This document shows positions 56,361 through 61,478 of a stretch of DNA of 64,000 bases, in pieces (positions within the stretch are counted from its first letter, which is position 1; each line of letters begins with the position of its first letter). Under the pieces are notes generated by a model. That model was given only the letters and a program-made list of their open reading frames with translations. It did no database searches and had not been told where the DNA came from. Source of the DNA: Burkholderia pyrrocinia. GTDB lineage: Bacteria > Pseudomonadota > Gammaproteobacteria > Burkholderiales > Burkholderiaceae. The DNA is taken from NCBI RefSeq assembly GCF_001028665.1, contig NZ_CP011504.1:248001-312000 (forward strand), written 5' to 3'. The position numbers and the translations under genes were made by a program.

Positions 56361-58001
56361 TCAGAGTTGCGCCGACAGCCGCTTGATCTCGCGGTTCAGC
56401 ACGCGCTCGTTGTCCGAATAGTCGATCGGCACGTCGATCACGTGCACGCCCGGCGACGAGAAGCACTCGCGCAGCAGCGGCTCGAGATCGTCGGCCGATT
56501 CGACGCGATGCCCGTGCGCGCCGTAGCTTTGCGCATACGACACGAAATCGGGGTTCTGCAGCGTCATCGCGAAATCGGGGAAATTCATGTTCTCCTGCTT
56601 CCAGCGGATCATCCCGAATGCATCGTCGCGCAGGATCATCACGACGATGTCGAGCTTCAGCCGCACGGCCGTTTCGAGCTCCTGCGAATTCATCATGAAG
56701 CCGCCGTCGCCGCACACGGCGATCACCTTGCGCTGCGGATGCACGATCTTCGTCGCGATCGCCGACGGCAGGCCCGCGCCCATCGATGCGAGCGCGTTGT
56801 CGAGCAACAGCGAGTTCGGCTCGTGCGCGCGCCAGTAGCGTGCGAACCAGATCTTGTACATCCCGTTGTCGAGACAGACGATCCCGTCGGCCGGCAGTGC
56901 GTTGTACAGGTCGTTGACGATGCGCACCGGGTATATCGGGAAGCGCGGGTCGTGCTGGCCCTTCTCCAGGTGCGCGTCGAAATGCTCCTTGATCATCGCG
57001 AAGCGCGCGAAATCCCAGTGCGGCTGCGGCGCGATCGCTTCCGTCATCTGCCACACCGCGTTCGCGATGTCGCCGACCACCTCGATCTGCGGGAAATAGA
57101 CGGGGTCGACCTGCGCACCGAGGAAGTTCACGTGGATCACGGTCTTGTCGTCCGCGCGCATGAAGAACGGCGGCTTCTCGATCACGTCGTGGCCGACGTT
57201 GATGATGCAGTCCGCATGCTCGATCGCGCGGTGCACGAAGTCGCCGTCGGACAGCGTCGCATTGCCGAGCCACAGCGGGTGCGTCTCGTCGATCACACCC
57301 TTGCCCATCTGCGTCGTGAAGAACGGGATGCCCGTCTTGTCGACGAATTCGACGAGGATCTTGCGGGTCGTCTTGCGGTTGCCGCCCGCGCCGATCATCA
57401 GCAGCGGATGGCGCGCGGCCTGGATCGCGTCGACCGCGTGCGCGACCGCCTTCTCCTCGGCGATCGGCCTCCGGCTGTAGCTGCGCGGGATCGGCTTGCC
57501 GTCGCCTTCCTCGTGCGCGATGTCTTCCGGCAATTCGAGGTGCGCGGCGCCCGGGCGCTCTTCCTCCGCGCGGCGGAACGCCTCGCGCACGGCCGACGGG
57601 ATGTTGCCGATCGACACGATCTGCCGCGTGAACTTCGTGAGCGGCTGCATCATGTCGACCACGTCGACGATCTGGAAGTGGCCCTGCTTGCTGGACTTGA
57701 TCGGCTTCTGCCCGGTGATCATCAGCATCGGCATCCCGCCGAGCTGCGCATACGCGGCGGCCGTCACGAAGTTCGTCGCGCCGGGCCCGAGCGTCGCGAG
57801 ACACACGCCGGTGCGGCCCGTCAGGCGGCCGTAGGTGGCGGCCATGAAGCCGGCCGCCTGCTCGTGCCGGGTCAGCACGAGCTTGATCTTCGATCGCCGC
57901 AGCGATTCGAGCAGATCGAGGTTTTCCTCGCCGGGAATGCCGAACACGTACTCGACACCTTCGGCTTCCAGCGCCTTCACGAACAGATCCGATGCTTTCA
58001 T
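56361..58001 (-). CDS. AlsS-like acetolactate synthase (ThDP-dependent)
   Basis: 546-residue thiamine diphosphate enzyme. The active-site Glu is in VLTRHEQAAGFMAATYGRLT; the ThDP motif is CGDGGFMMNSQELETAVRLK ending in LRDDAFGM, where the last Asn of biosynthetic IlvB is replaced by Asp, as in catabolic AlsS. No IlvN-like small subunit gene is nearby, and no acetolactate decarboxylase. It is likely to condense two pyruvates, but another 2-oxo acid or acceptor is possible given its ALDH partner. The ATG at 58001 (MKASDLFVKALEAEG) is chosen over an upstream GTG-type extension to 58043. Confidence 0.85.
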   Translation of the reverse strand: MKASDLFVKALEAEGVEYVFGIPGEENLDLLESLRRSKIKLVLTRHEQAAGFMAATYGRLTGRTGVCLATLGPGATNFVTAAAYAQLGGMPMLMITGQKPIKSSKQGHFQIVDVVDMMQPLTKFTRQIVSIGNIPSAVREAFRRAEEERPGAAHLELPEDIAHEEGDGKPIPRSYSRRPIAEEKAVAHAVDAIQAARHPLLMIGAGGNRKTTRKILVEFVDKTGIPFFTTQMGKGVIDETHPLWLGNATLSDGDFVHRAIEHADCIINVGHDVIEKPPFFMRADDKTVIHVNFLGAQVDPVYFPQIEVVGDIANAVWQMTEAIAPQPHWDFARFAMIKEHFDAHLEKGQHDPRFPIYPVRIVNDLYNALPADGIVCLDNGMYKIWFARYWRAHEPNSLLLDNALASMGAGLPSAIATKIVHPQRKVIAVCGDGGFMMNSQELETAVRLKLDIVVMILRDDAFGMIRWKQENMNFPDFAMTLQNPDFVSYAQSYGAHGHRVESADDLEPLLRECFSSPGVHVIDVPIDYSDNERVLNREIKRLSAQL

Positions 58002-58351
58002 GGGGGACTCTCGGTTGATGCCGCCTGCCCGGCCTACGGACACGCGGCGTACATGACGCGCGCCGGCCTACGGCACGCGGACGCTTTACCTACTGGACAC
58101 TGACCACGGCACTTCCCGCCGCGCAATGAGCGATGCGCGGCGGCGCCTCCGGATACCGGAGGACGAACGGACCCGCCCGTGCGCGACGGGCGCGCACGGG
58201 CGGCAAAGACGTGATTGATTGTAGACGGATTCGGAAAATTTCGACTTCGGCCGAATGGCCATTTGGCGCGCAAACGAAGCAGGCTGCCCTAATGTAGCGA
58301 CTACGGAATAGCCCGATATACCTGTGAACCATGGTTGACATACTGCAATCA
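58002..58351. promoter_or_regulatory. Divergent region between the acetolactate synthase and higBA-1
   Basis: 350 bases. Two hairpins stand in the acetolactate synthase leader (minus strand): CCTCCG..CGGAGG at about 58147-58163 and a 12-base stem CCGCCCGTGCGC / GCGCACGGGCGG (58173-58203). They may be a leader structure or a terminator-like stop. The AT-rich part 58205-58345 should hold the promoters of both transcripts. Confidence 0.4.
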
Positions 58352-58669
58352 ATGCCCTACAGTGCGCCTACGTTCAGCATCCGGACCACCGACGTCTTCG
58401 ACGCATGGTTTGCCGGCCTGCAGGATCGCGTCGCGAAGCGCCGCATCCAGGCACGCATCGACCGCCTGTCGATGGGCAATCCGGGCGACTGGAAATCCGC
58501 CGGCTCGCCAGTCGTCGAAATGCGTATCGACCATGGCCCCGGTTATCGCGTCTACTACGTCCGGCGCGGAACGATCTGGGTCATCCTGCTCTGCGGCGGC
58601 GATAAATCGACGCAACAGGCCGACATACGCGCCGCGCACGCGATGCTTGCGCATCTCGACATGGAGTGA
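58352..58669 (+). CDS. HigB/RelE-family toxin (first TA pair)
   Basis: 105-residue RelE/ParE-superfamily toxin of the addiction module killer type (TIGR02683-like): FDAWFAGLQDRVAKRRIQAR, RIDRLSMGNPGDWK, GPGYRVYYVRRG and VILLCGGDKSTQQADI are all typical. Such toxins cleave mRNA at the ribosome. The ATG at 58352 matches the family length; an in-frame ATG at 58331 would add seven residues, and neither has a good ribosome binding site. Its antitoxin gene follows after 3 bases. Confidence 0.87.
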   Translation: MPYSAPTFSIRTTDVFDAWFAGLQDRVAKRRIQARIDRLSMGNPGDWKSAGSPVVEMRIDHGPGYRVYYVRRGTIWVILLCGGDKSTQQADIRAAHAMLAHLDME

Positions 58670-58672
58670 TCG

Positions 58673-58972
58673 ATGGACAAGATCAGCACCCGGCCGTGGG
58701 ATTCGGCCGACCATCTGAAAACCGAAGACGACATGGCCGACTACTTCGAGGCCTGCCTGCAAGAGGCCGGCGACGATCCGGCCTTCATCGCGCACGCGCT
58801 CGGCGTGATCGCACGCGCCCGCGGCATGTCGCAGGTCGCGCGCGATGCGGGCCTGTCGCGCGAAGGGCTGTACAAGGCGCTGTCGCACGACGGCAACCCG
58901 AGCTTCGGCACGATCCTGAAGGTCATCAAGGCGCTCGGCCTGCAACTGCACGGCTCGAAAGCGCACGCGTGA
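58673..58972 (+). CDS. HigA-like antitoxin (first TA pair)
   Basis: 99-residue antitoxin with a C-terminal helix-turn-helix: FIAHALGVIARARGMSQVAR, DAGLSREGLYKALS, NPSFGTILKVIKALGLQL, the pattern of the TIGR02684 antidote family paired with this toxin type. It should neutralise the toxin and repress the operon. GGAGTGATCG lies before the ATG. The frame ends in HA just before the DUF445 3' remnant, as does the antitoxin of the second pair. Confidence 0.87.
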   Translation: MDKISTRPWDSADHLKTEDDMADYFEACLQEAGDDPAFIAHALGVIARARGMSQVARDAGLSREGLYKALSHDGNPSFGTILKVIKALGLQLHGSKAHA

Positions 58973-59020
58973 TGCGTGGGCGCGCGCCACCGCGCCGTCT
59001 GCGCGATGGCCGCGGCCGCA

Positions 59021-59112
59021 TCAATGCAGCCACCCGGCCGCCCAGCGCGGCACCAGCGACACCAGATACAACCCGAGCCCGATCAGCCCGCCGACCAGCG
59101 TACCGTTGATGC
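59021..59112 (-). pseudogene. Detached 3' end of a DUF445 gene (repeat copy A)
   Basis: 92 bases on the minus strand encode the last residues of the DUF445 protein (INGTLVGGLIGLGLYLVSLV, then PRWAAGWLH and stop). It matches 59981-60072, the true 3' end of the downstream gene, at 88 of 92 bases, exactly 960 bases away. The four differences are all silent in this frame (GGC/GGT, CTG/TTG, TTG/CTG, CAC/CAT). No start codon or rest of the gene is present. It forms one edge of the segment that carries the second higBA pair. Confidence 0.85.
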
Positions 59113-59322
59113 AATGGATCGTCCGAATGGCATAGCGGACCCGTAAAGGCAACGCGCGCCCCTATACTCGTCGGGACGACAGAAACCGGCCGGCATGCAT
59201 TGGCGATACCTGTCATCACGCGTTGACCTCACCCATTCCCAATCATTTAGGTTTCCTATTTGTCGTTTCACGCGGCGGCGCTTCGACGTACGCATCGTTG
59301 AAACCATTTCGCCCTTATTGAC

Positions 59323-59343
59323 GTATTACGCCAAACGTAATAC
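59323..59343 (+). promoter_or_regulatory. Palindromic operator of the second higBA pair
   Basis: GTATTACG (59323-59330) and CGTAATAC (59336-59343) form a perfect 8-base inverted repeat with a CCAAA spacer, ending just before the toxin start. Promoter-overlapping palindromes of this kind bind HigA-type antitoxins, so autorepression is likely. TTGAAA at 59298 is a possible -35 element. Confidence 0.7.
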
Positions 59344-59353
59344 CATGCCCGTA

Positions 59354-59632
59354 ATGATCAGATCGTTCCGATGCAAGGATACCCAGTTGCTGTTTGCTGG
59401 AGAATCGCCCAAGCGCTTCCGCACGATCGAAACCGTTGCCACCCGGAAACTGCAAATGGTCGCCGCTGCGAAAGAACTGCGCGATTTGCGGGCGCCTCCC
59501 GGCAACCGGCTCGAGGCGTTGCAAGGCGATCGGGGAGGCCAGCACAGCATCCGCATCAACGAGCAATGGCGGATCTGTTTCGAATGGAGCGACGATGGCC
59601 CCACCCAGGTCGAGATCGTCGACTATCACTGA
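59354..59632 (+). CDS. higB: HigB-family toxin (second TA pair)
   Basis: 92-residue HigB toxin (RelE fold, ribosome-dependent mRNA nuclease). MIRSFRCKDTQLLFAGE is the family N-terminus; LRAPPGNRLEALQGDRGGQH, SIRINEQWRICFEW and the C-terminal VEIVDYH contain the usual catalytic Arg, Trp and terminal YH. The ATG at 59354 matches homologues; an ATG at 59345 would add three residues. The gene follows its palindromic operator and precedes higA by 12 bases. It is flanked by the two DUF445 3' copies. Confidence 0.9.
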   Translation: MIRSFRCKDTQLLFAGESPKRFRTIETVATRKLQMVAAAKELRDLRAPPGNRLEALQGDRGGQHSIRINEQWRICFEWSDDGPTQVEIVDYH

Positions 59633-59644
59633 CTGGAGCCTCGC

Positions 59645-59947
59645 ATGCTCAAGAATGGAATGCGCCCGATTCATCCGGGCGAGGTCCTGCGGGAAGAGTT
59701 CCTCGTTCCGCTGGAAATGAGCGTCAACGCACTGGCGCTCGCGTTGAACGTGCCGGCGACACGCTTGCACGAAATCGTCAAGGAACGGCGCGGCATCACG
59801 GCCGATACGGCTTACCGGCTTGCGCGCTACTTCGATACGTCGCCGGAATTCTGGTTGAACCTGCAAGCCGCTTACGATCTCAAGACACTGCCGACGCGCA
59901 GCGAGATCGACCGCAAGGTCGAACCGCGCGAGCGCACGCACGCGTAG
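59645..59947 (+). CDS. higA: HigA-family antitoxin (second TA pair)
   Basis: 100-residue XRE-type antitoxin: NGMRPIHPGEVLREEFLVPL, MSVNALALALNVPATRLHEI, VKERRGITADTAYRLARYFD, TSPEFWLNLQAAYDL match the TIGR02607 HigA family. It should bind HigB and repress the operon at the 59323-59343 palindrome. The reading frame ends HA-stop 33 bases before the DUF445 stop codon, convergent with that gene. Confidence 0.92.
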   Translation: MLKNGMRPIHPGEVLREEFLVPLEMSVNALALALNVPATRLHEIVKERRGITADTAYRLARYFDTSPEFWLNLQAAYDLKTLPTRSEIDRKVEPRERTHA

Positions 59948-59980
59948 GCACCGCGGCCGCCGTTCGCCGGCATGGCCGCG

Positions 59981-60072
59981 TCAGTGCAACCACCCGGCCG
60001 CCCAGCGCGGCACCAGCGACACCAGATACAGCCCGAGCCCGATCAGCCCGCCGACCAGCGTGCCGTTGATGC
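59981..60072 (-). repeat. Direct repeat copy B: 3' end of the intact DUF445 gene
   Basis: This is the functional C-terminal coding segment of the DUF445 gene and the second member of the 92-base direct repeat (copy A at 59021-59112, 4 mismatches, all synonymous). Similarity stops sharply at 60073 on the gene side; on the other side it fades into the short spacer behind the antitoxin gene. The unit length is 960 bases. Confidence 0.85.
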
Positions 60073-61267
60073 GGATGTACTGCAGATCCTTGCCGATGTT
60101 CAGCTCGATCTGCCGCGACATCTCGCGCGCATCCCAGTTGCGCACCGTGTCGCGGATGTGGCGCATCAGGAAATCGGCGAAATCCGGCGCCATCTCGTGC
60201 ACGGCCTTCTCGATATGCTCGTTCAGCGACGCGCGCAGCGCCGGGCTCTCGGCGAGCCGCGCGCCGAGCCAGCCGCCGAGCGTCGCGGCCTGCCGGTGCA
60301 GCACCGAATCGGGGCGCGCGAGATCGGCCTTCAGCCACGCGCGCAACTGGTCCCACAAGTCGCGCGCGTATTCGTTGAACGCATCGCCGTCGCGAATGTA
60401 GCGCTTGATCTCCTCGCCCTTTTCGATGAACACGGGATCGTGCTTCAGCCGGACGGTCAGCCGCACGACCGTCCGGTCGAAGCGCTGCCGCAGCTCGTGC
60501 TCGGGATCCGCCGCCACGTCTTCCAGCACGCGGCTCACCGCGCTCGCGAGCATCCGCGCGCCGTTCTCGCCGAACCACTGCGTCGGCATGATCTTCTCGA
60601 TTTTCGGATACTGCGTCTTCAGCCATTCGACGATGAATCCCGCGATCACCTCGCGGTTCTCCTCCTTGTCGAGCACGTCGACCACCTGTTCGATCGCATC
60701 GTCGAGCAACGCCTGGTGGCGGCCGTCCTTCGTCAGCGTGTCGAGGATCGCGCCGGCCGATTGCGACAGGTCGACCCGGTCGATCACCGCGCGGAACGCG
60801 TCGTGGACGAACGACTGGATCCGCGCGTCGTCGGTCATGTCGAGCGCGAAGCTCATCAGCTTCGTCACGTAGACGCCCAGCGCGTCGGTGTTCGCCGGCT
60901 CGCCGAGCCATGCGCCGAGTTTCTGCGCGGGATCGTGCTGGCGGATCTGTGCGGCGAGCGCATCGGGGCCGAGAAACTTCTCGCGCACGAACACCGCGAG
61001 GTTGTCGGCGATCTTGTCCTTGTTCTTCGGGATGATCTCGGTATGGCGCGACACGAACGGAATCGGCACGCGACGGAACAGCGCGACGACCGCGAACCAG
61101 TCGGCGAGCGCACCAACCATCGCGGCCTCGGCCACGGCCTTGACGCCGTCGACCCACGGGCCGCGCGGCAGCAGGATCGTCGTGACGAACACCGCGACTG
61201 CGGCCAGCAGCAGCCACAGCGCGCGGCGCTTGCTTCGTTTCAGTTCGAGGGCTTTGTCAGGCGTCAT
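59981..61267 (-). CDS. DUF445 family membrane protein
   Basis: 428-residue DUF445 protein, function unknown. One helix near the N-terminus (ALWLLLAAVAVFVTTILLP) and one at the C-terminus (GTLVGGLIGLGLYLVSLVP) flank a long helical middle region with EAAMVGALADWFAVVALFRR, RHTEIIPKNKDKIADNLAVF and a coiled-coil-like EKIMPTQWFGENGARML segment. The last 30 residues lie in the repeat duplicated beyond the higBA-2 module. The ATG at 61267 (MTPDKALELKRSKRR) is preferred; an upstream start at 61324 would add 19 residues. Confidence 0.87.
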   Translation of the reverse strand: MTPDKALELKRSKRRALWLLLAAVAVFVTTILLPRGPWVDGVKAVAEAAMVGALADWFAVVALFRRVPIPFVSRHTEIIPKNKDKIADNLAVFVREKFLGPDALAAQIRQHDPAQKLGAWLGEPANTDALGVYVTKLMSFALDMTDDARIQSFVHDAFRAVIDRVDLSQSAGAILDTLTKDGRHQALLDDAIEQVVDVLDKEENREVIAGFIVEWLKTQYPKIEKIMPTQWFGENGARMLASAVSRVLEDVAADPEHELRQRFDRTVVRLTVRLKHDPVFIEKGEEIKRYIRDGDAFNEYARDLWDQLRAWLKADLARPDSVLHRQAATLGGWLGARLAESPALRASLNEHIEKAVHEMAPDFADFLMRHIRDTVRNWDAREMSRQIELNIGKDLQYIRINGTLVGGLIGLGLYLVSLVPRWAAGWLH

Positions 61268-61478
61268 GGAGGACGGGCGGATCGGCGATGTCGCTAATAT
61301 CCCCGATTTCGCCCCGGCCGACAAACGCGCGGCATGATGCGCGACGGGCCCGCGCGATCGCCGCCGCGCATCAGGTCACCCTCCGCTCGCGCAACCGTCC
61401 GGTAAGCGCGCGGCCGGCGACGTCATCGCCGACGCAATCCGTCCGCCGCGCCGGCCATGCTCGCCGCGCCTGCCGCCG

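Follow-up and report, generated by a model that had tools for sequence, protein, structure and literature searches.

A HigBA toxin-antitoxin pair next to a displaced DUF445 gene end in Burkholderia pyrrocinia probably stems from the fusion of two versions of one gene slot

In Burkholderia pyrrocinia, a HigBA toxin-antitoxin pair lies between two copies of the 3' end of a DUF445 membrane protein gene, beside a second toxin-antitoxin pair (T1A1) that occupies the interval between the DUF445 gene and an acetolactate synthase gene in most of the relatives compared here. The arrangement is probably, though by no means certainly, the product of a head-to-tail fusion, in which a HigBA version of this interval was joined to the T1A1 version through two crossovers, one of them homologous and the other illegitimate.

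Within the window, the whole stretch of 64,000 nucleotides that was analyzed, the locus begins with the gene for the acetolactate synthase large subunit (56361-58043, minus strand; NF006187), followed by T1A1 on the plus strand, the displaced DUF445 end (copy A), HigB-HigA on the plus strand, and the intact DUF445 gene, which ends in copy B. The synthase gene constitutes the right border of the gene slot; the interval between this gene and T1 (58044-58330) is termed T1up. T1 is an HI1419-type toxin of the RelE/ParE family (58331-58669, plus strand; TIGR02683, E = 3e-35), and A1, the antitoxin of this native slot occupant, is of the HI1420 type (58673-58972, plus strand; TIGR02684, E = 4e-36); the pair (58331-58972) directly adjoins copy A and was absent from the initial annotation of this DNA. 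The DUF445 ORF (59981-61324, minus strand; PF04286, E = 7e-119) opens at a TTG codon, and its likely start is an internal ATG near 61267.

The HigB-family toxin of 92 amino acids is encoded on the plus strand at 59354-59632, since the listed higB ORF (59195-59632) begins too early. The protein belongs to the HigB/RelE-like family (PF05015, 57.6 bits on the longer ORF against a cut-off of 27), no NCBIfam toxin model matched it in the family search, and its nearest solved relative among toxins, PDB 6f8s_B (E = 1e-34 over residues 2-92), is presumably GraT of the GraTA pair. HigA (59645-59947, plus strand), which also has solved relatives, falls among the XRE antitoxins encoded downstream of their toxins (TIGR02607, 112.6 bits against a cut-off of 47.7, E = 6e-33). 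An inverted repeat, GTATTACG-N5-CGTAATAC, precedes higB (59323-59343) and, as read from the sequence, is a probable operator; in DNA comparisons, the match to most of the other HigBA loci starts at 59316-59336. By family, HigB and HigA are predicted to form a type II toxin-antitoxin pair that resembles the HigBA family in the position of a HigB-like toxin before a HigA-family antitoxin and in its probable palindromic operator; the proteins displayed no unusual traits, and none of the PADLOC anti-phage families matched the five proteins searched.

Copy A (59014-59112, minus strand) and copy B (59974-60072, minus strand), the latter consisting of the 3' end of the intact gene and 7 nt beyond its stop codon, match over 99 nt with 95% identity and five mismatches (self-search, E = 2e-41). 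The initial annotation had located the two copies at 59021-59112 and 59981-60072, 960 nt apart, and had counted four mismatches, all synonymous in the DUF445 frame; both statements hold for the 92 coding bases, where four of the five mismatches fall and all four are silent, and the similarity extends for another 7 nt beyond the stop codon. Its observation that higBA sits between the copies without an integrase agrees with the family assignments: HigB and HigA occupy most of the stretch between the copies, and no integrase or recombinase was seen among these two ORFs, the ones searched against families in a stretch that also has overlapping ORFs in other frames.

The locus was compared across a sample of 65 genomes of the genus, one per species; 64 contain the DUF445 gene, and the match is absent from the remaining one (G057, 82% complete). 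The stretch downstream of DUF445 was fetched in all 64 (about 7 kb in most), and seven window proteins were mapped on each. A near-complete match to the synthase was found downstream of DUF445 in 59 of the 64, T1A1 lies between the two genes in 49, HigBA in seven, and slots with a single DUF445 end and without HigBA were recovered. Six of the seven HigBA genomes (G000, which contains the window, G033, G041, G049, G056, and G061) carry HigBA between DUF445 and T1A1, with a displaced DUF445 end between the pairs; self-searches detected this end in five of the six (78-108 nt), and the degraded copy A of G056, 31% different from the gene end, was recognized by position and alignment. In the seventh genome, G034, HigBA is the sole pair in the slot, and both T1A1 and the repeat are missing.

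Several slots hold other material. In G012 and G060, about 5 kb separate the DUF445 stop codon from A1, with ORFs that by eye resemble a LysR regulator, a ketopantoate reductase, a glyoxalase, MaoC, CaiB, and shikimate dehydrogenase; in G047, an insert of about 4 kb between DUF445 and A1 contains ORFs that by eye are MocR-like, GlyA-like, and BenE-like, and the T1 match is split in two pieces. A TnpB-like ORF was noted by eye between T1 and the synthase gene of G043, and the DUF445 match of G040 contains a single in-frame TGA. The slots of three outgroup genomes (G038, G042, and G015) contain, by eye, a Na+/H+ antiporter ORF and no T1A1; the T1A1 pair may have been acquired by the common ancestor of the cepacia-like genomes.

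The position of copy A relative to T1A1 identifies it as the original gene end. Copy A ends exactly 48 nt away from the stop codon of A1 in each of the six tandem genomes (in G041 and G056, where copy A is altered, its end was placed by alignment). Among the 43 T1A1 genomes without HigBA, 48 nt is also the commonest distance between the DUF445 and A1 stop codons, found in 20; the distance is 32 to 93 nt in another 20 and amounts to thousands of bases in three with other inserts. Since this flank is kept, copy A on its A1 side marks where the slot originally ended, and what was added is HigBA together with the second DUF445 end, in support of the earlier proposal that copy A is the original DUF445 end left behind.

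The opposite edge of copy A is also shared. In all six junctions, copy A starts at the same DUF445 base (position -91) after the same spacer, with a deletion a few bases beyond this joint in G033; in the window, the novel joint (59112-59115) consists of the outer spacer end, 3 nt, and DUF445 position -91, and its edge is identical in the six genomes. DUF445 homology beyond the 92-nt edge was considered and rejected, as shuffle tests in four genomes revealed nothing clear past the sharp edge at -91 (the strongest signals, from G041 over 80 nt and G049 over 230 nt, were equaled by 14 and 30 of 300 shuffles, respectively). At this edge, the two sequences meet without extended homology, as one end does in homology-facilitated illegitimate recombination; on the side of the putative homologous anchor, the gene is continuous and copies A and B are homologous. 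The fixed 48-nt flank and the same joint in six genomes point to one old event, and a joint common to six species-level genomes speaks against a recent exchange.

Copy A has since decayed. Between copy A and the gene end, the number of codons with amino acid changes is 0 in G000 and G061, 1 in G033, 2 in G049, 9 in G041, and 12 in G056, and the number of gap columns 0, 0, 18, 7, 6, and 12, respectively (about two of the 18 in G033 are an artifact of the cut that removed the first two bases of copy A). Indels or amino acid changes in four of the six genomes show that copy A is not preserved for coding, and its status as a maintained coding piece was rejected. The inference from purely silent changes to two functional DUF445 alleles, on which the initial annotation had relied, fails for the same reason. 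The chance that four of four differences are silent is about 0.007 if random single changes are equally likely, and 0.02 if only transitions are considered. The gene copy is limited to silent changes by being a gene, and copy A of the window has simply changed little. Ends were compared among 45 single gene ends and the six A/B pairs, leaving out 13 distant genomes. At three of the four silent sites, both bases are known from the single ends (copy A base in 19, 41, and 28; copy B base in 26, 3, and 17), and at the fourth the copy A base occurs once; three of the four variants, found at three or more of the 45 single ends, need not date from the event.

Overall, the two copies of one genome resemble each other more than randomly paired copies do (an equally low distance arose in 5 of 720 permutations), and in four of the six genomes copy A is closer to its own gene end than to any of the other five. 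The window's copy A has a distance of 0.06 to its own copy B and of 0.02 to copy B of G033, and in G056 the own gene end is likewise not the nearest. The overall closeness suggests later homogenization of copies A and B, possibly by gene conversion.

About 240 nt of spacer separate copy A from the start of higB. The inner portion of this spacer comprises the probable higB operator and about 110 nt without counterpart in G034 or T1up, the profile of which performed no better on T1up regions than controls. With a profile built from the outer 95 nt of the six spacers, the T1up region of G010 reached 12.7 bits, that of G022 12.5 bits, and that of G062 11.8 bits, compared to a best score of 5.4 among 980 shuffles and of 8.9 among 2478 genomic control pieces. 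Five of the 49 T1up regions exceeded the best shuffle and three the best control; the next scores (8.4 bits in G034, 6.1 bits in G009) are within the range of the 2478 controls. Seven of the 16 best matches listed, these five genomes included, end 48-52 nt from a common landmark, and nine end elsewhere. The reverse search, with a profile of 42 T1up regions against the six spacers, found no match, and direct comparison of the spacer with the T1up of its own genome gave mixed results (in G041, 54 of 200 shuffles did as well as the real sequence; in G000, 5 of 200 did). Judged by these scores, the outer spacer end, here termed T1up' (approximately 59116-59169, minus strand; delimited by profile matches and alignments), is likely homologous to T1up and reaches the joint, by a match that is short (54 nt) and contains an inverted repeat. 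By eye, a repeat of the form GTCCGA-N8-TCGGAC was seen in several spacers (window ~59116-59169) and in the T1up of G022 and G062, whereas the window and G010 have imperfect forms of it; it might be a shared operator, control site, or terminator. If the spacer does end in T1up', then the DUF445 end, HigBA, and T1up' together make up a complete second version of the slot, and the foreign piece was probably such a whole version instead of just higBA with a DUF445 C-terminus, as had been proposed.

As G034 shows, HigBA can fill the slot by itself. The DNA upstream of higB in this genome passes directly into the usual sequence upstream of the synthase gene (268.7 bits over profile positions 30-360), and the nearest match to its synthase-side part is about 90% identical over 242 nt. 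Its DUF445 gene groups with that of the window genome (support 94) and its synthase gene does not; from this discordance, G034 may itself be recombinant, and it might be a deletion product or a recombinant instead of a survivor of the donor type. The seven HigBA genomes fall in the same group of 29 genomes in the DUF445 tree (support 97) and in the synthase tree (support 92), and HigBA is absent from 22 of the 29. Divergence of HigBA among the seven (0.03-0.11) correlates with that of the synthase (Spearman 0.83) and little with that of DUF445 (0.15), in 21 pairs that are not independent; the HigBA pattern requires four changes on the DUF445 tree (none of 500 shuffles as low) and six on the synthase tree (98 of 500). 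The joint shared by six genomes, the confinement of HigBA to one 29-genome group, and the divergence that tracks the synthase indicate that the fusion is probably old; the patchy occurrence of HigBA would then reflect later losses, spread by ordinary recombination, or both.

The events can be envisaged as follows. The interval between DUF445 and the synthase is a single slot that different toxin-antitoxin pairs can occupy. DNA carrying the HigBA version of the slot would have entered a T1A1-type cell, an ancestor within the group of 29 sampled cepacia-like species, and crossed over homologously within the DUF445 gene; its other end, in T1up' beyond higB, would have been joined illegitimately to the resident DUF445 at position -91. 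The product would read DUF445 end B, HigBA, and T1up', then DUF445 end A, A1T1, and T1up, followed by the synthase gene. The DUF445 gene would have remained whole through copy B, copy A as a spare piece would decay and sometimes be rewritten by conversion with copy B, and the two direct repeats would permit precise loss of HigBA. The outline first suggested, a foreign segment that recombined into the gene and restored it, stands insofar as the original end was displaced and HigBA lies behind a second end; the argument from silent changes does not.

A rather unlikely alternative, but the one that survives best, is that HigBA entered the DUF445 3' end by an insertion that duplicated about 100 bp of target, without any donor DUF445 end, as described for some restriction-modification systems. 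These systems are reported to insert with long target duplications, and repeats of this kind permit unequal crossing-over (PMC3874152; PMC3031569); the stated size, "in the order of 100 bp" (PMC3874152), and the form, an addiction-type module between direct repeats with no transposase seen, fit the present locus. Direct repeats of the target do flank HigBA, no integrase was seen, and the overall closeness of the two copies within one genome is also in line with such an insertion. In contrast to the restriction-modification insertions, sequence from the far side of the slot seems to be duplicated in the spacer, short as the match is, which a plain insertion would not have brought; that this class implies such an absence is our own inference. 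Moreover, G034 carries HigBA in the slot without T1A1 or the repeat.

HigBA loci elsewhere also argue against insertion with target duplication. Among the matches listed from 398 genomes of the family, at least 17 genomes of other genera contain a HigA with 84-91% identity. At 22 other HigBA loci, four of them in the same genus (G003, G014, G025, and G052), the match to the window DNA is confined to 59316-59960, no DUF445 piece was found, and comparable flanking repeats are missing: 19 have none and three have only 17-29 nt, in a test that, applied as a control to the six tandem loci, recovered the repeat in all but G056, where it is degraded. Flanking repeats as a general trait of HigBA were rejected on these counts; short and weak repeat matches (42 nt at most) beside 18 of the 49 T1A1 loci were taken as noise. 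The neighboring genes at seven of the 22 loci, inspected by eye, differ from those of the window. Searches for a HigBA carrier yielded 21 matching plasmid records, none covering 80% of the query, and three phage records, none matching near full length. In three genomes of another genus of the family (G245, G109, and G334), HigBA relatives lie near an ORF that by eye resembles recJ; with such similar neighbors, HigBA looks vertically kept there.

Somewhat less likely still is a tandem duplication of the T1A1 slot, followed by replacement of the first T1A1 by HigBA. It would produce the same final order and the same repeats, but it requires two events, and two T1A1 units in one slot were seen nowhere in the 64 regions compared, most of which cover about 7 kb downstream of DUF445. 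The spacer end also scores higher on the T1up types of G010, G022, and G062, which differ from the window's own T1up, than on the latter (3.0 bits). Islands integrated at the 3' ends of tRNA genes leave an intact gene end and a displaced one, the likeness to which the initial annotation had drawn attention; site-specific integration at the DUF445 end, with attL/attR-like repeats and a recombinase since lost, is nonetheless very improbable, as HigBA, copy A, and T1A1 fill the tandem slots so fully that a recombinase gene would not fit, the ORFs identified by family between the copies are HigB and HigA and neither is an integrase, a single shared joint was found where site-specific integration would give several independent ones, self-searches detected no second DUF445 end beside the larger slot inserts of G012, G060, and G047, and there is no sign of a mobile unit.

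The fusion of two slot versions finds its closest parallel in homology-facilitated illegitimate recombination, a mechanism named in PMC3240628 and proposed for the T6SS effector-immunity arrays of Vibrio cholerae (PMC5361080), alongside which orphaned 3' regions of Rhs loci are mentioned. In those arrays, as would be the case in the present locus, the incoming module is anchored by homology on one side and joined illegitimately on the other, and the resident gene is pushed downstream (PMC5361080). Unlike the V. cholerae arrays, the Burkholderia slot keeps both complete toxin-antitoxin pairs, and the leftover is the 3' end of an unrelated neighboring gene. The proposed event is probably an old, testable case of this known type. 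A text search found the DUF445-HigBA-T1A1 locus described in no title or abstract opening within its coverage, which leaves out most subscription journals.

For sequence interpretation, the locus illustrates that differences between a gene end and its duplicate that are only silent are no evidence for an origin from a second working gene. More tentatively, and with far more doubt than confidence, the DUF445-synthase interval can be regarded as an integrase-free exchange slot for toxin-antitoxin pairs, where unequal crossing-over between repeated border pieces, the DUF445 end and T1up, would allow competing pairs to accumulate side by side and to be lost again without a trace of imprecision, and where the stacked HigBA-T1A1 arrangement would be a long-lived polymorphism across species, shaped by gain, collapse, and gene conversion. 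To our knowledge, the carrier-free entry of chromosomal toxin-antitoxin pairs is seldom visible in sequence; here, the route of entry is readable and testable, since comparison is possible for the joint, for the native end that was displaced, and for slots of relatives that lack HigBA.
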